From Deltaproteobacteria bacterium (lineage in GTDB: Bacteria; Desulfobacterota; Desulfomonilia; UBA1062), in assembly GCA_011046135.1 (NCBI GenBank), contig DSBG01000104.1:1-39698 (forward strand): 39,698 nucleotides of DNA, in the 5' to 3' direction. Every line of letters starts with the position of its first letter. Position 1 is the first letter of the stretch. The position numbers were made by a program, and so were the translations under genes. Under the pieces are notes generated by a model. The model was not told where the DNA came from, searched no databases, and worked only from the letters and a program-made list of their open reading frames with translations. This document shows, piece after piece, positions 561 to 28,658 of the stretch.

Positions 561-1292
561 TTACGTCCAGAGCATGTTGCAAAAGAGGGGATAGACCCGT
601 CTGAGTCTTTCCCGTGCCGGTCCCCGGAGAAGAGAAAGCTCATCTTCTGTAATGGGAACGATCTCATCGATACTCCGTCCTGTGGTATCGAGGTCGAATC
701 CGGTGTTCTCGGCGACGGTTTCCATGTCGATGCCGGGATAGGTCGCGTCGAGAATAAGACGGCTGCTGCTTTCATCGAAGCGAAGCAGAGCAAGAGGTGT
801 GACGCAGTGTGAGAACACACCACGGCGCCAAGGAATGCTGTCATCCCGTGCAGAGCCGTTCTTGAAATCAACCTGCGGAACAAAGAGTTTCTTCGTGTGG
901 GTGATGGTGAAGAATATGGTCCTCTTGGCCATCATGATCATCATGTTCGATCCTGCTCCGCCCGGCAGGCGAAGCTTCGGCTTGTGATACTCACCGATCA
1001 CGGAAAGGTTGAAGTTGCCCCACTGATCGATCTGTATACCGCTGAGGAAGAAGAGATCTATCATGCCGCGTTGGGCAAGGCCGAAAAATTCATGAAGACC
1101 GTCGGTAATCCGCGTATCCGGGTCGCCGTAAATCAAGGGGACCAGGTTTGGCGCGTGGTGTAACTGCGCCAAGAAAAGTGCCGCAGCCGGAAGGGGAGAA
1201 AGCGTTCCCACGGCGGCGATTTCTCCGTCCCGCACGAGGCGTGATAAAACGACGATCATTCGTTCAAAGGGATGAAGTGATTTGTCGCTCAT
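561..1292 (-). CDS. CoA-transferase family beta subunit (pair 1), lacking the usual catalytic Glu
   Basis: This 243-residue protein belongs to the class I CoA-transferase beta-subunit family (GctB/IpdB-like). It shares with the second beta subunit of this cluster the HAPN segment, a region around GQID/IQID-x-x-GN(F/M)N, and a GGAG motif (here LPGGAGSN). Aligning on HAPN, the position that carries Glu in the second copy (Glu52) is Tyr55 here, in IYGDPD. Class I CoA-transferases use that Glu to form the acyl-enzyme, so ordinary transferase chemistry is doubtful. IpdAB, a hydrolase of the same fold that opens a steroid ring, is known to lack this Glu and is a possible model. The ATG overlaps the stop of the alpha gene by four bases (ATGA), which indicates translational coupling. 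It is the last gene of the operon. Confidence 0.85.
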   Translation of the reverse strand: MSDKSLHPFERMIVVLSRLVRDGEIAAVGTLSPLPAAALFLAQLHHAPNLVPLIYGDPDTRITDGLHEFFGLAQRGMIDLFFLSGIQIDQWGNFNLSVIGEYHKPKLRLPGGAGSNMMIMMAKRTIFFTITHTKKLFVPQVDFKNGSARDDSIPWRRGVFSHCVTPLALLRFDESSSRLILDATYPGIDMETVAENTGFDLDTTGRSIDEIVPITEDELSLLRGPARERLRRVYPLFCNMLWT

Positions 1293-2137
1293 GATGCATC
1301 CCCTTTCACGATCTCCAGGTATGCTTCGTGGTCTTCAGGTCCGGTTATGTATTTCTCCAGGTAGACCTGGTAGGAGTCTTTGTTCCTGGCAGCCTCCAGG
1401 TAGCGCATGATATGTTCAGCATCGATGTCGTAGCGACCGCGGCAGGCCGTCGGGTGGGCCCCATGGGGGGCAACGACGATGGCATCGATGTGGACGGAGG
1501 CCACGTATACACCGTGCCTCCCCGGCAGGAGATCGTCGGGGTCTACGAGTTCCTCAACGATGGCAATAGTTTTTCGTGCCGCCATGGCGAGAAGCCGGTC
1601 GTTCCTGAAGCTGTCCGTGACGACGGCCCCGGAAGGATCACCCTGGAAGGCATGAATGACAGCAACGTCGGGAACGAGTGCGGGTACAGCCACATATTCA
1701 GTGCCGCTGTAGGGATCTTTGATGCGCTTGAAATCTCTTCGAACAGTCAGGTAGTCACTGTTGAGAAACCCCACAACCGGGGTAAAGGGGATGCCGTTGG
1801 CTCCAGCCTGGAGCGCCAGAAGCAATGCCGGTCAGATGGTTTCCATAATCAATAATTTACCGGCCTCAGTATAGTTCCTGAATTGCGGAGCCAAACCGAA
1901 TTCGTCCATCACAATCTGGGGAAACTGAACGGACGTGACACAGCCAGCACCGATAAGAAGGTCGGCCACGTAGCCTCCGGTGAGAACAGAGGTGAGTGTA
2001 AGATTCGAAGTCCGGTTCTTTATAATCTCGCGGACCACCGGCATGGGATTCATGTCCATACCGGAGCCAACGCCGAGATGCATGCCCGATTCAATCAATT
2101 CCGCAGCCTGCGCCGCTGAAACAACCTTTTCCTCCAT
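1289..2137 (-). pseudogene. CoA-transferase family alpha subunit (pair 1), interrupted by an in-frame TGA
   Basis: The span codes for one alpha subunit of the GctA/IpdA type, but a TGA at 1832-1834 splits it in the same frame into a 101-residue N-terminal part (2137-1832) and a C-terminal part running 1831-1289. The N-terminal part has the GVGSGMDMNPMPVVREI glycine-rich region. The C-terminal part has ALQAGANGIPFTPV, DPYSGTEYV and PHGAHP, each with a counterpart in the intact alpha subunit at 4830-5888. Without the stop the protein would be about 282 residues, short for the family but complete at both ends. No ribosome binding site is visible for a restart at the TTG at 1825. It sits about 90 bases after the crotonase gene and is coupled to the beta gene. 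A sequencing error, a true nonsense mutation or recoding could each explain the stop; a mutation or an error is likelier. Confidence 0.7.
1832..1834 (-). other. In-frame TGA within the alpha-subunit gene of pair 1
   Basis: The minus-strand reading is GAA ACC ATC TGA CCG GCA TTG CTT. In the paralogue the aligned residues are E-L-T-N-H-T-L-L, so the TGA falls where Asn stands. Reading one base later gives TCT GAC (Ser-Asp), which resembles the expected Thr-Asn pair. This hints at a pair of small compensating indels or base-call errors rather than a single substitution. Confidence 0.75.
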
Positions 2138-2227
2138 GCTCCCCCCTTATGGTGTATGCCACAGAAAACCTTCCTGCGGGTGCCGCCAAAGATCAACAAT
2201 ACCCTGTGACCAGCCAGGATCGACCTA

Positions 2228-2944
2228 CTATGCCGTGAGGTTCAACGGTTCGATATAGAGTGGATCCTCCTCGTCAATCGCCTTGATGATCCATCGGTTC
2301 ATGCGGCGTTTCATCTCGCCGAAAACAGAGCGTTTCTTATTCAATGAACGAGCAAAACGCATTGATTCTTCGAACAGCTCCTGTTTTGTCTCAAGGGCCT
2401 TCAGAATGATGTTGTGTTCCTCCATCTCCTGCGCGTTGATTTTCTCCCCGGTATACTTGAGTTCCTCTAATGTATGAAAGGGAATGCCCTTCTTTGCGAT
2501 CTCGATCATACCGGGGAGAAAGGGGATGCCCAGGTCCACCTCGGGGAAGCGGCAGAAGCCCTGTTCAATGCTCATAAAACGGAAATCGCAGGCACAGGCC
2601 AACACCAGGCCATTTGCTGCCACGTGTCCGTTTATACAGGCGATCAGAGGTATGGGAAAGGTCAGCATGGTCTTGAACATCTCGTTGACAGCATACAGGC
2701 ATTTTTTGATCAGATCGAATTCGCCCTTTGCATACTGCTCAAAAAGCCAGTCTACATCCATACCGAGAGACCAGCACGTCGTATCCGTGGAGGACAGAAC
2801 AACCCCATGGATGCGTTCATCGATCAGCACCTCGTTCAGCACATGAATCATGGTCTCAGCAAAGACAAGATTGTGGCGGTTTTCTCCATTGTTCATTCGT
2901 ATCTGTGCGATCTCCTCGAGGTTTTCCCATTCGATTACAGCCAT
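2228..2944 (-). CDS. Crotonase-family protein (enoyl-CoA hydratase/isomerase)
   Basis: This 238-residue crotonase should act on an acyl-CoA in the cytoplasm. The first oxyanion-hole segment is SLGMDVDW around residues 59-66. The second is INGHVAANG around residues 104-112, where most hydratases have a Gly-rich AxGGG. The FPEVDLGIPF segment at 133-142 contains a single Glu (135) in the active-site region. One acidic residue and the PEVDLG context resemble Delta3,Delta2-enoyl-CoA isomerases more than two-Glu hydratases, but the exact reaction cannot be read from sequence. The gene lies about 100 bases after the amidohydrolase and about 90 before the pair 1 CoA-transferase genes, all on one strand, so it is probably part of the same operon and handles the CoA ester those proteins make or use. 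Confidence 0.85.
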   Translation of the reverse strand: MAVIEWENLEEIAQIRMNNGENRHNLVFAETMIHVLNEVLIDERIHGVVLSSTDTTCWSLGMDVDWLFEQYAKGEFDLIKKCLYAVNEMFKTMLTFPIPLIACINGHVAANGLVLACACDFRFMSIEQGFCRFPEVDLGIPFLPGMIEIAKKGIPFHTLEELKYTGEKINAQEMEEHNIILKALETKQELFEESMRFARSLNKKRSVFGEMKRRMNRWIIKAIDEEDPLYIEPLNLTA

Positions 2945-3042
2945 TGCTTCTCCTTGCCGGACAAGTGAATCCGGACTCCCGCGAGAGATACGGGGATGGT
3001 TATCATCGATGCCGCCATGTTTTTTTCTAACCCGAGCATCCC

Positions 3043-4011
3043 TTATTCAAGATTAAAGAGACGTGCAGCATTGTGATAGAGCCATTTTGCCTTGACGTCG
3101 TCCTTGAGGGGGAGCTCCATGACACCATCGGCCAGCTGCTTGATCGTTCGGCCCATGAACAGCCAGGTAGAAGCGAAGAGCACCCGGTCCTGCAGGATGG
3201 AGTTACCGAGTTGCATCAGGGTTTCCCAGCCTGATCCGGGTCTGCCGAGGTATCTGGGTTCGATTGAGGCGATGTCGATATAGATGTTTTCATTTCGCCA
3301 GGCCACCGCCATCATTTCAGGAATCCACGGCCACCCCCCATGGCCTGCAATGATTTTCAGCTCGGGGAAGTCCTGAGCCACGATGTCGAAATAGATCGGG
3401 CGTTCAACCTCCATGTTGTTGGTGGAGTAGTTGATGCCGGTATGGAACCAGACCGGTATGTCGAGCTCAACGCAGGTTGAGTACAAAGGATACATCTTGG
3501 CGTGGTGAGGAGGAATGCCGAACATGAAAGGTCTCACGCCGATCCCGCGCAGACCGAGATCATAGCTGCGTCTGATTTCACGCACGGCGTTCATGCCTCT
3601 CAACGGATCGATTCCGGCCATACCAATGAATTTATCCGGATACTGTTTGACGACATCGGCGTAGTAGTCATTCGGCAGTCCTGCCAAGCCGCTGGGGGTT
3701 TTCTCATCCAGGTTGAAGATAACGGCCTTTTCCACTCCCATTTCATCCAGCTGTCCGACAAATTCATCCAACGTGGAAGATAGGGGTTTCATCTTCGGGG
3801 CCAAGGCCTCGCGGAAATCGTTCTCGCTCATCCTGATTTTCATTTGGTAGAATTCTTCTGATGTTATACCCATAGCCGGAGCCACCCGGGGGCCGAAAAC
3901 ATTTTTCAGATAGCGGGCCATCTGGGGAGGTAGTGAAACAGCCAGATCCAGAACCACTTCTGCGGTGGGAACGTAACACAGCGCGTCGATAATTTTATAG
4001 GGTTCCTGCAT
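3043..4011 (-). CDS. Amidohydrolase_2-family protein with a degenerate metal site
   Basis: The fold is that of the amidohydrolase-2 (ACMSD-like) TIM-barrel family, 322 residues from the chosen start. I chose the ATG at 4011 because it lies 10 bases after the beta-subunit stop and begins MQEPYKIIDA, where the family normally starts its first strand; the ATG at 4047 would overlap the upstream gene. Family members usually carry HxH on strand 1, a His on strands 5 and 6, and an Asp on strand 8. Here strand 1 reads IDALCYV (Leu11 and Tyr13 at the HxH positions), His190 (WFHTG) and His224 (AGHGGWPW) remain, and the strand 8 segment is FASTWLF with no Asp. Metal-dependent hydrolysis or decarboxylation is therefore doubtful. 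The position between CoA-transferase and crotonase genes suggests a role in the same catabolic route. Confidence 0.8.
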   Translation of the reverse strand: MQEPYKIIDALCYVPTAEVVLDLAVSLPPQMARYLKNVFGPRVAPAMGITSEEFYQMKIRMSENDFREALAPKMKPLSSTLDEFVGQLDEMGVEKAVIFNLDEKTPSGLAGLPNDYYADVVKQYPDKFIGMAGIDPLRGMNAVREIRRSYDLGLRGIGVRPFMFGIPPHHAKMYPLYSTCVELDIPVWFHTGINYSTNNMEVERPIYFDIVAQDFPELKIIAGHGGWPWIPEMMAVAWRNENIYIDIASIEPRYLGRPGSGWETLMQLGNSILQDRVLFASTWLFMGRTIKQLADGVMELPLKDDVKAKWLYHNAARLFNLE

Positions 4012-4021
4012 GGTCTGTCTC

Positions 4022-4840
4022 TCATGCGTTCTTGGATAACAGATCAATGACCCTGTTCATAACGACTTCAAGCTGGAGTTTTCTGCCCATGGAGACCTCC
4101 GGAGAGAAGGTGCGGATAATGGTGAGTTCCTCCTCTGTGGGAAAGGGGGTTATCTCGAGTGTGTCGGCGACGTTCAGATCCCAAGGAACGTCTGCCTTGA
4201 TCTCCTCTACTGTCACACCGGGATGCAGCCCTGCAAGGTACAGTTCTTTTGTGTCTTCGGCAAACTTGAAGACTCCCTTGGTCGTAATCAGCATAGTGGG
4301 CCCCGACCCCTCGGGCATGCCGGCTTCGTAGCGTGAATCACCACCGGTTACGAAACCCGGGGAGGTGAAATAATCCAGTGTATTGACGAAGGTTCCCCCG
4401 CTCATGGTCAGGATGGCACGATTGGCATAGCCCACAAATTCAGGTGCGCCTCCAGCGCCCGTCATGCGGATCGTAAAGTCATCCGGATCCCCAAGATAGC
4501 TGCTGTTCATGTTGCCGTAGCGGTCGATCTGGCCGACGCCAAGAAAGGTTGCATCTACATAGCCCCGGTTCACGACCGTGGTAAAGATGTCGATCATATC
4601 GCATGAATACGTGAAGCCCCTGCTGCATGTTGGATCAGCGATGTGCAGCGGTACTTTGAACGGGTCGATGCCGAACATGCCGGCCTCGGTCAGAATCACT
4701 GAGTTGGGTGCATGGGTTTTACGTGCTAAGACCCCGGCTGCCATGGCAATGCCCTGGCCGATGACGACAAGTTCGTTATCCTTGAGTTCCTTTGCGGCAC
4801 GCGAAACGATCAGCTCATTGACGGTATAATTAGTTCCCAT
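4022..4840 (-). CDS. CoA-transferase beta subunit (pair 2), catalytic Glu present
   Basis: A 272-residue class I CoA-transferase beta subunit, GctB-like. It would move CoA between a donor acyl-CoA and a carboxylic acid as part of an alpha/beta complex in the cytoplasm. The segment SVILTEAGMFGIDP places Glu52 at the position of the catalytic Glu of glutaconate CoA-transferase. The segment GVGQIDRYGNMNSS and the TGAGGAPEF glycine motif are also family features. The gene starts 11 bases inside the end of the alpha gene, which suggests coupled translation and equal subunit amounts, and the amidohydrolase ATG follows its stop after 10 bases. Compared with the beta subunit at 561-1292 it keeps the catalytic residue, so this pair is the better candidate for an active transferase. 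The substrate is unknown. Confidence 0.88.
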   Translation of the reverse strand: MGTNYTVNELIVSRAAKELKDNELVVIGQGIAMAAGVLARKTHAPNSVILTEAGMFGIDPFKVPLHIADPTCSRGFTYSCDMIDIFTTVVNRGYVDATFLGVGQIDRYGNMNSSYLGDPDDFTIRMTGAGGAPEFVGYANRAILTMSGGTFVNTLDYFTSPGFVTGGDSRYEAGMPEGSGPTMLITTKGVFKFAEDTKELYLAGLHPGVTVEEIKADVPWDLNVADTLEITPFPTEEELTIIRTFSPEVSMGRKLQLEVVMNRVIDLLSKNA

Positions 4841-5888
4841 GGATCAACACTCCTTTCTTGTCAAGCATGGCAACAAATTCATCCATGTTCATGCCCATAT
4901 TTCTCGAATAGCCGCTTTCATTCCAGTCTGTTGAGAATGTTGACCCATAATCTGCATCGACACTCTTGAAGGATTTTGCCCTGAAGGCATCAAGGGTTTC
5001 CTGGCCGAAGCGCTTGACATAGTGTTCGATGTATTCGTGGCGATCACCAACAGTGTAAATCCACTCATCCATCCAGGCCTTGGCTCCTTCAGGGCTGGCG
5101 CAAGAACCAAAGAACAAGGCCCTGAAAGGAAAGTCGTAATCGTAGTGCCCCAGGAGTTCAGATGGATGAGCACCCCAGGGACATTCCACAACGGCACAGA
5201 CCTTGTGGGCAGGCACGATCGTGAGGTGCGGAGAGGACATGATTACCTCGGTGTCCACGATTTTCTCGCATGACAGGATCACCTTCTTGGCAGCCAGGCA
5301 GGCCCATTTGCTGTTGATCATCGCACCCCAGAGCTGACCGTTGCCAGCTTTGTCTGCGCGTTGTACGTGCATGAGAGCAAAGTCAGGATTATACCCCTTG
5401 ATCACGAGAACAGGGTTACCGGTAAAGGGGTCTGTTATTTCGGAAAAGCGCTGATCTCCCATAAAACCCTTACGTTTGACCACATCAGTGACCCGGATGC
5501 CGGACAGCACCGGGATAAACGGATATCCCATGGCACCTGCCTTCATCATGGAGAGCAGGGTATGATTGGTCAATTCTTCGACCACAATCTGCCTTTCCTT
5601 CAGGGCGCGATCGAGAGGAGTGGTGATCCTGGGACCACCAGCTCGGAAATTATAGGCCAGAACGAGGCGGTCGAGTGATCCAGCCAGTAGAAGCTGATCG
5701 ATTTCTTCAATGCCTCCCTGCTGAAAAGCCATGAGATTTTTTTTGCCCTGCCTGATAAGTTCGTGAGCCAGCGCCAGAGGCATGCTGTAGAGACAGTTTG
5801 CAAAGACGAAGGATTCACCGTTGTTGACAAAACGATCGATGGCGTCTTTGGCCGTCATCCTCTTGTCAGGATCCATGTATTTTTGCAT
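4830..5888 (-). CDS. CoA-transferase alpha subunit (pair 2)
   Basis: A 352-residue alpha subunit of the GctA/IpdA type, partner of the beta subunit encoded next. Recognisable segments are the N-terminal helix-strand region (AKDAIDRFVNNGESFVFAN), KAGAMGYPFIPVLSG, the FTGNPVLVIKGYNPDFALMHV region and PWGAHPSELLGHYDYD, which matches the PHGAHP segment of the pair 1 alpha subunit. It is longer at the C-terminus than many family members by a tail of about 60 residues after the conserved core (from about residue 290). The start has an excellent ribosome binding site, AAGGAGG, a few bases upstream. It is the first gene of the catabolic operon, following a tetR gene by about 150 bases that hold a palindrome and a direct repeat. 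Confidence 0.87.
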   Translation of the reverse strand: MQKYMDPDKRMTAKDAIDRFVNNGESFVFANCLYSMPLALAHELIRQGKKNLMAFQQGGIEEIDQLLLAGSLDRLVLAYNFRAGGPRITTPLDRALKERQIVVEELTNHTLLSMMKAGAMGYPFIPVLSGIRVTDVVKRKGFMGDQRFSEITDPFTGNPVLVIKGYNPDFALMHVQRADKAGNGQLWGAMINSKWACLAAKKVILSCEKIVDTEVIMSSPHLTIVPAHKVCAVVECPWGAHPSELLGHYDYDFPFRALFFGSCASPEGAKAWMDEWIYTVGDRHEYIEHYVKRFGQETLDAFRAKSFKSVDADYGSTFSTDWNESGYSRNMGMNMDEFVAMLDKKGVLIHGN

Positions 5889-5917
5889 ATCTCCCTCCTT
5901 TCAGATTTGTATTTCCC

Positions 5918-5935
5918 AAAACCGATATTGGTTTT
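5918..5935. promoter_or_regulatory. Candidate operator: 18-bp near-perfect palindrome before the catabolic operon
   Basis: The sequence AAAACCGATATTGGTTTT has six-base arms (AAAACC/GGTTTT) around a GATATT core and only one mismatched pair. It lies about 30 bases upstream of the first CoA-transferase ATG and just downstream of the tetR gene, where a repressor could block transcription. That the neighbouring TetR protein binds it is inference. Confidence 0.45.
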
Positions 5936-5982
5936 TACATCATAACAATAGTGTGAACTCTACTAACTCGTAATTCTTATCG

Positions 5983-6026
5983 TGCCGGTACATCGTGCCA
6001 GACTGCATGAAGATCATTGCCGGTAC
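5983..6026. repeat. Direct repeat TGCCGGTAC, two copies
   Basis: TGCCGGTAC occurs at 5983-5991 and again at 6018-6026, 35 bases apart start to start, in the short region between tetR and the CoA-transferase operon. Both copies are exact. They could be regulator half-sites; no known motif was recognised. Confidence 0.4.
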
Positions 6027-6038
6027 GAGTAGTCTTCA

Positions 6039-6695
6039 TTATGCCGAGTTCATGCCCCATATGGGGGGATTGTTCTGACTCGGTGACAGAGAAGGAGCTG
6101 AAACCGCCTTCCAGAACGCGGGGAAGAAATCCGGTATGGCATCAACCAGCTTCCACGTCATTTTGTTAAAATACCATCGGTGAACCTCATGATAGCAGTG
6201 CATGAAGAAAAGGCCCAAGATCTGGGAACCCTTCAATCGAGGGTCAAGTTCTTCCCGCCTGACTTGTTGCAGGACCGTGTCGATGAGTATGGCATAGGTG
6301 CCGCTTTGTCGGTAGGAGTCTTTTTGCATCCACGTCCGGGTTGGAACCGTGATAAAAAAGGTTATGGCCACCCCGGGGTTGCGGTCATAGTAGTCCATCA
6401 GCACCCAGTACGCTTTTCTGAACATCTCCCGTGAACTCTCAAGTCCCTGGAGATGGAGGCGCACAAGATCATGGATCTCAGCGACTTTTTCATCGATTAT
6501 TGTGAAGAGCAGATCCTCTTTGGAGGTGAAATATTTATAGATGGTGCTGGTGCTCAAGCCTGACATTGTGCTGATATCGCGGATGGTTACCTGGTGGAAA
6601 TCATTTTTGGAAAAGAGTTCCAGCACCACGGGATAGAGGCGATTTTTCAGTTTGTCCGGCATCTCGATGCTGGGCGTTTCGATATGTTCCATCAC
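6039..6695 (-). CDS. TetR-family transcriptional regulator
   Basis: A 218-residue DNA-binding regulator. The N-terminal helix-turn-helix is clear at about residues 36-56 (QVTIRDISTMSGLSTSTIYKYF), followed by SKEDLLFTIIDEKV, the standard start of the TetR ligand domain. The rest (about 75-200) is helical, with many aromatic residues, and should hold the inducer pocket and dimer interface. It is encoded directly upstream of, and on the same strand as, the CoA-transferase/amidohydrolase/crotonase genes, so it probably controls them in response to the substrate or its CoA ester. FadR/FabR-type TetR proteins commonly sense acyl-CoAs, but the ligand here is unknown. It may also be co-transcribed with the operon. 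Confidence 0.88.
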   Translation of the reverse strand: MMEHIETPSIEMPDKLKNRLYPVVLELFSKNDFHQVTIRDISTMSGLSTSTIYKYFTSKEDLLFTIIDEKVAEIHDLVRLHLQGLESSREMFRKAYWVLMDYYDRNPGVAITFFITVPTRTWMQKDSYRQSGTYAILIDTVLQQVRREELDPRLKGSQILGLFFMHCYHEVHRWYFNKMTWKLVDAIPDFFPAFWKAVSAPSLSPSQNNPPIWGMNSA

Positions 6696-27176: not shown

Positions 27177-28658
27177 ATGAATATCTACTCCTGGCTTGCC
27201 GTGCACGCAACATCCCGGCCTCAGAAGACATGTATCCGCACCAGGGATACAGAGATGACCTTTTCCGAGCTCTACACCCTCACGTGTGCCCTCGGTGCCT
27301 CGCTGAAAAAATCGGGAATCAGGAAGGGAGACCATGTTACCATGGTCCTGCCCAACATCCCCGAATTCATCGTCGTATACATGGCGGTCGTGGGTCTCGG
27401 CGCCGTTGTGATTCCCGTGAATCCGGCCTTCACCTCCCGGGAGCTGAAGTACATCCTCTCGGATTCAAATTCCCGGGCCATCATTCTCGAACACGCCAAC
27501 CTGGGGACCTACACGGCCATTCAACAGGAGTGCAGCCAGGATATCGTCATCACCACAGGGCAGGGGGGGAACTTTTCAGAGTATGTCCGTGATCGGGGAG
27601 CCCCGATCCTCGAAGACATGGATCCCCACGACGTGGCTGCCATGATCTATTCATCGGGGCTCACGGGGGAACCCATGGGCGCCATGCTTACCCAGGCCAA
27701 CCTCGACCACAACTCGGATCTCATGAGAGTGTGCATGGGTGCGGATGATACAGACACCACGCTCACCCTTATCCCCTGCTTCCATTCCTTCTCAGCAAGC
27801 GTGAACATGCTCTCCATGCTCCGCTACGGAGGGAGCATCTACCTCATGAAAAAGCTCGACTTCAAGGAGATGCACCACGCCCTCACATCAGTTGGAATCA
27901 CGGCGATCTGTGCCGTCCCCACGCTCTTTTTCGGCCTGGTAAGCCATCCCGATCTCCAGGGTATCGATTACTCCGGCGTCAGGACGCTGATTGCGGGGGG
28001 ATCCGCTCTATCGCTGGATATCTATGAGTCGTTCAGGGAGCGGTTCCAGCGAAACATCAGGCAGGGATACGGAATTACCGAAGCCTCACCGGTGTGCAGC
28101 TGTAACTACCGGCCCTTTCCCATCAAGCCGGACTCAATCGGGATGACGGTGCCGGGTGTTCAGGCAAAGGTGGTTGATGATCAGGGTGCAGAGCTGAAGC
28201 CAGGGGATCATGGCGAGATTCTCTTCAAGGGCCCCAATATCATGAAGGGGTACTACAGGCGCGAGAAAGAAACCAATGAGGTCATCTCGGACGGGTGGCT
28301 CTCCACCGGAGATCTGGGATTCATGGATGAGGATGGCTACATCTACATCACCGGCTACAAAAAGGACATGGTGATCACCTCGGGATTCAACGTCTACTGC
28401 CGGGAAGTCCAAAACGTCCTGAACTCGCTGCCGGGGGTCAGGGATTCTGCCATCACCGGGGAGCCTGATCTCATGCGAGGCGCGATCATCAAGGCGTTCA
28501 TCGTCTGTGACGACCCCAGTGTCAGTGAGAGTGCCATCAAACACGCTGCCCGGAAACTCCTGGCCTCCTACAAGACCCCGAGGAAGGTGATCTTTGTCAG
28601 GGAAATCCCCCGGGACGAACAGGGAAAAGTGCTTTTTGACCACATGGAACCCCTCTGA
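27177..28658 (+). CDS. Acyl-CoA synthetase-like protein (AMP-binding, ANL superfamily)
   Basis: A 493-residue adenylate-forming enzyme that should activate a carboxylic acid to its CoA thioester with ATP. It starts after a strong AGGAGG. The phosphate-binding loop is SSGLTGEPMGAML at 159-171; most members have SSGTTGxPKG, and the loop lysine is Met167 here. The other motifs are normal: GYGITEASP, STGDLGFMDEDGYIYITGYKKDMVITSGFNVY, and the catalytic lysine Lys484 in DEQGKVLF. The substrate is unknown; long-chain and aromatic acids are both possible. The TGA overlaps the ATG of the radical SAM gene by one base (TGATG), so the two are translated together. Confidence 0.87.
   Translation: MNIYSWLAVHATSRPQKTCIRTRDTEMTFSELYTLTCALGASLKKSGIRKGDHVTMVLPNIPEFIVVYMAVVGLGAVVIPVNPAFTSRELKYILSDSNSRAIILEHANLGTYTAIQQECSQDIVITTGQGGNFSEYVRDRGAPILEDMDPHDVAAMIYSSGLTGEPMGAMLTQANLDHNSDLMRVCMGADDTDTTLTLIPCFHSFSASVNMLSMLRYGGSIYLMKKLDFKEMHHALTSVGITAICAVPTLFFGLVSHPDLQGIDYSGVRTLIAGGSALSLDIYESFRERFQRNIRQGYGITEASPVCSCNYRPFPIKPDSIGMTVPGVQAKVVDDQGAELKPGDHGEILFKGPNIMKGYYRREKETNEVISDGWLSTGDLGFMDEDGYIYITGYKKDMVITSGFNVYCREVQNVLNSLPGVRDSAITGEPDLMRGAIIKAFIVCDDPSVSESAIKHAARKLLASYKTPRKVIFVREIPRDEQGKVLFDHMEPL

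Follow-up and report, generated by a model that had tools for sequence, protein, structure and literature searches.

Analysis of contig DSBG01000104.1 (assembly GCA_011046135.1, a deltaproteobacterium of the lineage UBA1062), which was considered over its whole 39,698 nucleotides and is called the window below, revealed on its minus strand a pair of overlapping genes (pair 1) that probably encode a heterodimeric selenoenzyme with the fold of class-I coenzyme A (CoA) transferases. The codon UGA102 of its alpha subunit would be decoded as selenocysteine (Sec), and this residue would replace the catalytic glutamate of the beta subunit. The conserved in-frame TGA had been overlooked by the initial annotation, which regarded pair 1 as apparently non-catalytic; the latter is doubtful, since a related enzyme has its catalytic residue just where the TGA lies. 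The features concerned are as follows.

1289..2137, minus strand: pair-1 alpha subunit, 282 amino acids including one in-frame TGA read through, class-I CoA-transferase fold (AlphaFold model with pLDDT 94.5, and homologues).
1832..1834, minus strand: in-frame TGA, codon 102, proposed selenocysteine, aligned with Glu105 of IpdA.
1799..1816, minus strand: hairpin with a GGC apical loop, proposed bacterial selenocysteine insertion sequence (SECIS) element, nucleotides 19-36 counting from the T of the TGA.
561..1292, minus strand: pair-1 beta subunit, which has lost the catalytic-Glu segment (as seen from motif spacing); its ATG overlaps the alpha stop.

The alpha gene consists of two in-frame pieces, encoding 101 and 178 amino acids and split by the TGA at 1834-1832 (METI-TGA-PALLLALQAG), and standard gene callers are expected to make two genes of it. 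Its own stop codon is TGA too and overlaps the ATG of the beta gene (ATGA), so that the latter would be positioned for coupling to translation continuing past the first TGA. Among 395 sampled genomes of the phylum, 27 matched the alpha subunit at E<=1e-40, with the in-frame TGA in 21 of them and without it in six; one of the 21 TGA rows additionally spans a TAA near its end. A scan of genome contigs yielded five loci, all with the TGA, and a search of the class gave matches in two of 85 genomes, both with the TGA and one of them new (L081). As L028 and L054 are apparently the same contig (their length and coordinates are identical) and were counted once, 26 distinct TGA sequences are left. In all of them, down to 32-34% identity, the TGA falls into one single column, and the frame downstream of it is conserved. 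In this column the eight non-TGA homologues carry Asn (five), Glu (two) or Cys (one). A 25-member profile, built from the same TGA sequences that it separates, gives 374.9-429.9 bits to 21 TGA loci, followed by a Cys form at 270.3 bits and a Glu form at 258.0 bits; among the matches listed for this profile, none of the other rows contains a TGA. L080 (7355-8931), a relative that holds Cys in the Sec column and has no beta Glu, is a natural Cys counterpart of pair 1. A scan of the window for more genes with an in-frame TGA returned two implausible frames, but the scan is insensitive and missed the known TGA gene too.

In the phylogenetic tree, a single branch sets the 26 Sec alphas apart from the other sequences; this split recurs in 98% of the bootstrap trees (support values 68/89) and argues for a single origin of Sec among them. 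Within the window's own order (24 genomes), the TGA type was retrieved at E<=1e-30 solely from the window's genome, and two other genomes gave weak matches devoid of the TGA; this restricted occurrence suggests that pair-1 alpha was transferred into the lineage.

At a fixed distance downstream of the TGA, nucleotides 21-26 pair with nucleotides 30-35 around the GGC loop. This hairpin is constrained beyond codon choice: 143 of 150 cells are paired, versus 88.2±4.9 expected from synonymous resampling of the same genes (maximum 107 in 1000 draws), and the mean energy is -9.4 kcal/mol, versus -4.6 kcal/mol under the resampling. Compensatory changes, affecting both sides of a pair, account for 12 cells versus 2.3 in shuffled data, with none of 500 shuffles as high, and when the register is slid, the pairing falls from 95% to 55% or less. 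The GGC loop forms in all 26 TGA genes, and an energy of -7.5 kcal/mol or lower is reached in 21; the two properties are combined in 21/26 TGA genes, in one of the eight non-TGA homologues and at 262 of 5313 other codons (4.9%). In the eight non-TGA homologues, 30 of the 48 cells of these columns are paired. The bacterial SECIS model, as outlined in PMC13188914, comprises a loop of 3-9 nt with G in the first two positions, a spacing of 16-37 nt and an energy not exceeding -7.5 kcal/mol, the loop being mostly N-G-[G or U]-N-N, in which the two outermost bases pair; the A-GGC-U loop and the spacing of 22-23 nt agree with this model.

The genomes that harbor the TGA type are, as a rule, equipped for Sec decoding. 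The selB gene is present in the window's own genome, in 19 of 21 TGA genomes and in five of the six genomes lacking the TGA; tRNA-Sec was found in 18 of 22 TGA genomes, including the window's own, and SelA in 21 of 22, the window's genome being the sole exception. At least two of these three genes occur in 21/22 TGA genomes (the selB count omits G444).

The place of the predicted Sec is informative as well. By both single-sequence and profile alignment, the TGA column corresponds to the IpdA Glu that reads Ala in 6coj_A, the entry entitled 'IpdAB E105A COCHEA-COA complex'. In the AlphaFold model of the alpha subunit, residue 102 opens the helix 102-113. Glu105 of IpdA is reportedly essential, according to the 2018 structure paper. 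By structure comparison, IpdA is the nearest to the alpha subunit by Z (37.3-37.9, the value of 37.9 going with a root-mean-square deviation of 1.6 over 279 aligned residues), followed by GctA (Z 34.8) and AibA (Z 32.4), while GctA has the best Foldseek E-value and is also the top one by sequence profile. The likeness to IpdAB proposed by the initial annotation thus holds for the structure of the alpha subunit and for the absence of the beta Glu; as to the tree, it leaves the Sec alphas without a firm grouping with IpdA, AibA or GctA.

The PF01144 domain is present in both subunits of pair 1. In the beta subunit, however, only 28 residues separate the APN and RGxxD motifs, versus 47-48 in other subfamilies, and this deletion of 19-20 residues takes out the whole catalytic-Glu segment. 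The absence of the transferase Glu had been noticed before, but Tyr55, taken then for the counterpart of Glu52 in a second alpha/beta pair of the same cluster (pair 2), is an alignment artefact of the deletion, and this correspondence was dropped. Pair-1 beta therefore lacks the catalytic beta Glu by which class-I CoA-transferases are recognised. The deletion accompanies the TGA: 28-29 residues are found between the flanking motifs in 24/24 informative betas of Sec alphas (20 adjoining the alpha gene and four elsewhere in the f8 genomes; locus L066 was left out, as N in the contig makes the segment unreadable), versus 47-48 in 11/11 others. GctB-like betas partnered with an Asn alpha keep the Glu in seven of seven cases, and in betas partnered with a Glu alpha (L078, L079) or the Cys alpha (L080) the segment is kept and the Glu is absent. 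The f8 family (alphas L068, L069, L071, L072, L075; betas L111-L114) is peculiar in that alpha and beta are unlinked: the alpha gene follows a gene resembling NUDIX by eye, and the beta gene lies at another locus in four of the five genomes, with no beta found in the f8 genome G312. At L056 (957-2480), alpha and beta form one open frame of 508 amino acids with Sec, the start of beta being missing; this is either a fusion or an assembly deletion.

The conserved TGA, the hairpin, the deletion in beta and the place of the residue are read directly from the sequence; what we infer from them, i.e., Sec insertion, Sec as the catalytic nucleophile, an acyl-CoA substrate and the cleavage of a C-C or thioester bond, could be combined as follows. 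SelB and tRNA-Sec would decode the alpha UGA102 as Sec with the help of the hairpin just downstream; Sec insertion at this codon is strongly supported by the evidence given above. At the N-terminus of the helix, in place of IpdA Glu105, the Sec would assume the catalytic role of the transferase beta Glu, as supported by its position and by the deletion in the beta subunit. With a pKa of 5.2 given for Sec in PMC13188914, this residue would be an anion, like Glu, and a far stronger nucleophile, which makes a covalent acyl-selenide chemically reasonable. In the likeliest reaction, which we nonetheless regard as tentative, the selenolate would attack a carbonyl group of the CoA-bound substrate and bring about C-C or thioester cleavage via an acyl-selenide or a related intermediate. 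The CoA ester could be supplied by pair 2 in the window and by AMP-forming ligases at some other loci. The retro-aldol-type hydrolysis by IpdAB, as described in PMC5380842, needs no beta Glu, and CoA transfer was not detected there. Pair 1 might represent a new selenoenzyme family in which Sec replaced a non-cysteine active-site residue and acts as a non-redox nucleophile cleaving acyl-CoA bonds in anaerobes, for example in a thiolase-like step whose bond energy is conserved in a newly formed thioester; we consider this possible, though by no means assured.

The other genes of the cluster are listed below.

6039..6695, minus strand: TetR-type regulator (PF00440).
4830..5888, minus strand: pair-2 alpha subunit, GctA-like, with Asn at the Sec column (sequence and alignment).
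4022..4840, minus strand: pair-2 beta subunit, GctB-like, bearing the catalytic Glu52 (alignment with 1poi_B).
3043..4047, minus strand: amidohydrolase (PF04909); the ATG at 4011 may be the true start.
2228..2944, minus strand: crotonase-family protein (PF00378).

The order on the minus strand (TetR, pair 2 alpha/beta, amidohydrolase, crotonase, pair 1 alpha/beta) and the families confirm the initial description of a TetR gene with a six-gene cluster, in which the pairs flank the amidohydrolase and the crotonase. Glu52 of pair 2, assumed to be catalytic, indeed aligns with the Glu of the glutaconate CoA-transferase beta subunit (1poi_B), and pair 2 resembles a regular GctAB. No NCBIfam model matched the amidohydrolase. 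The idea of a conserved six-gene ring-cleavage module had to be dropped: among the 25 other Sec-type loci, whose neighbours were scanned in part, pair 2 and the amidohydrolase were met in L058 alone, a partial match in which pair-2 alpha is 79% identical and no gene of the intervening stretch was identified as a crotonase. Pair 2 and the amidohydrolase possibly form a unit of their own.

Neighbours of the relatives were scanned selectively (30 genes by Pfam, eight proteins by NCBIfam). AMP-forming ligases were found in L054, L067 and L115 and also next to L080, the Cys form, acyl-CoA dehydrogenases in L056, L067 and L115, and a hydroxyacyl-CoA dehydrogenase/crotonase fusion as well as a thiolase in L070. 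A branched-chain-amino-acid-type ABC transporter adjoins L061, L063, L064 and L080 (members of L061 and L080 were scanned, the others assigned by clustering). At the remaining loci, the neighbours are housekeeping genes or were left unscanned. Acyl-CoA traffic is the theme that the neighbourhoods share, without one single pathway. Near the pair in L058 (14159-15352), L074 (231-1400) and L077 (6701-7777) lies a pyridine-nucleotide-disulphide oxidoreductase resembling CoA-disulfide reductase, which has its own in-frame TGA right before PYYIG and whose family is already listed as a selenoprotein; a relative of it in L076 is cut by the contig end. A CMD-family protein adjoins four f21 loci. In the rest of the window (8024-35201), nine of ten further open reading frames scanned had Pfam matches, DnaG primase, sigma-70, phosphomannomutase and a FliF-type flagellar gene among them, and nothing odd was seen; a second AMP-forming ligase of the window lies at 27177-28658.

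Several observations weigh against pair 1 as a selenoenzyme of the proposed kind. SelA was not found by two models in the window's own genome (G000, 99% complete), and nothing convincing was present next to selB or tRNA-Sec there; this may be an assembly gap. The hairpins of five f21 members, at -6.6 kcal/mol, are weaker than the published cut-off, the 50-nt stretch starting at the TGA is as stable as its shuffles (z 0.10), and an Rfam search gave no match. A strict bulge-free scan for bacterial SECIS elements passes 18 of the 26 TGA genes, the window's gene failing; five of the eight non-TGA genes pass it too, as do 11% of other codons. As the generic model discriminates so poorly, the weight rests on the position-specific hairpin test. 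Besides, the neighbourhoods vary between lineages, and the placement of the Sec alphas relative to IpdA is weakly supported, with weak deep branches and a long IpdA branch. The failure to find SelA in the own genome could also be taken to mean that the UGA stands for some other amino acid or serves to make a regulated truncated product, with no selenium involved. This is very improbable, given that genes of this operon, pair-1 alpha among them, terminate with TGA, that the hairpin is conserved and obeys the loop and spacing rules of bacterial SECIS elements, that at least two Sec genes accompany the TGA in nearly all genomes and that the frame past the TGA is maintained throughout. Even less can be said for a pseudogene or a sequencing error, to which a stop codon inside a gene might point at first sight, the draft genome being fragmented: the identical codon, shared by 26 distinct sequences of many families, has already refuted it, and we assign it a negligible probability.

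If Sec is inserted, its use may still be another one. A redox-active Sec, whose selenol would serve to reduce an acyl-CoA or to bring about a reductive elimination on it before a separate reductase restores the reduced state, would accord with the view that known selenoproteins are mostly redox proteins (as summarised in PMC13188914), with the TGA-bearing oxidoreductase near the pair in L058, L074 and L077 and with the CMD-family protein at the f21 loci. We nevertheless consider it unlikely: a selenenyl bond would find no Cys to resolve it, as none is invariant in the beta subunit or, outside the Sec column, in the alpha subunit, so that an internal selenenyl-sulfide cycle is disfavored, neither UxxC nor CxxU occurs at the Sec, the reductase was recognised near four loci only (one cut by the contig end), and the fold is a non-redox acyl-CoA fold. 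Somewhat less likely still, pair 1 could have remained a CoA-transferase, in which Sec replaces the beta Glu by carrying the acyl group or assisting direct acyl-to-acyl transfer. The GctAB fold and the first rank of GctA by Foldseek E-value and sequence profile favor this option, but the deleted segment is the one bearing the Glu on which the anhydride and CoA-thioester intermediates form, the Sec belongs to the opposite subunit, where it takes the IpdA position, and IpdAB, likewise devoid of the Glu, showed no CoA transfer in the account of PMC5380842.

The selenoenzyme proposed for pair 1 appears to be previously unlisted, judging from titles and abstract openings and from two family inventories. 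CoA-transferases are absent from the 2026 inventory of 119 prokaryotic selenoprotein families (Table 1 of PMC13188914) and from the nine new families named in PMC12013277; a literature search gave no selenocysteine CoA-transferase in titles or abstract openings, and NCBIfam 20.0 contained no fitting model, the weak matches being far below the cut-off. If the proposal is true, the 21st amino acid would here have an unusual origin, at the place of a glutamate in a CoA-transferase fold, and might also be put to an unusual use. Such genes may fall into a detection blind spot of methods that require Cys homologues (noted in PMC12013277), and pair 1 offers a directly testable enzyme.

With known bacterial selenoproteins pair 1 shares the in-frame UGA and the downstream hairpin, as well as the Sec machinery, of which SelA was not found in the window's own genome; nearly all selenoproteins, according to PMC13188914, have cysteine homologues, whereas in pair 1 the Sec would sit where relatives have Glu or Asn, and only once Cys. 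The closest parallel is IpdAB, the COCHEA-CoA hydrolase of steroid degradation (6co6, 6co9, 6coj), which has the same alpha/beta class-I CoA-transferase fold, likewise lacks the beta Glu and is expected to have its catalytic residue at the same alpha position; it differs in having Glu105 where pair 1 would have Sec, at 28% identity, while pair 1 has lost the beta Glu segment by deletion and no steroid-type neighbourhood was seen around it. GctAB (1poi) shares the fold and the alpha length, but GctB retains the catalytic Glu segment lost from pair-1 beta. AibA/AibB (3-methylglutaconyl-CoA decarboxylase, 5mzw) is a GctAB relative without the beta Glu that, as described in PMC7756340, has a chalcogen residue, Cys56B, in its place; this Cys is on beta and is not strictly needed (same source), whereas the Sec of pair 1 would be on alpha, where AibA has Gly in the Sec column, and pair-1 beta lacks the very segment that bears Cys56 in AibB.

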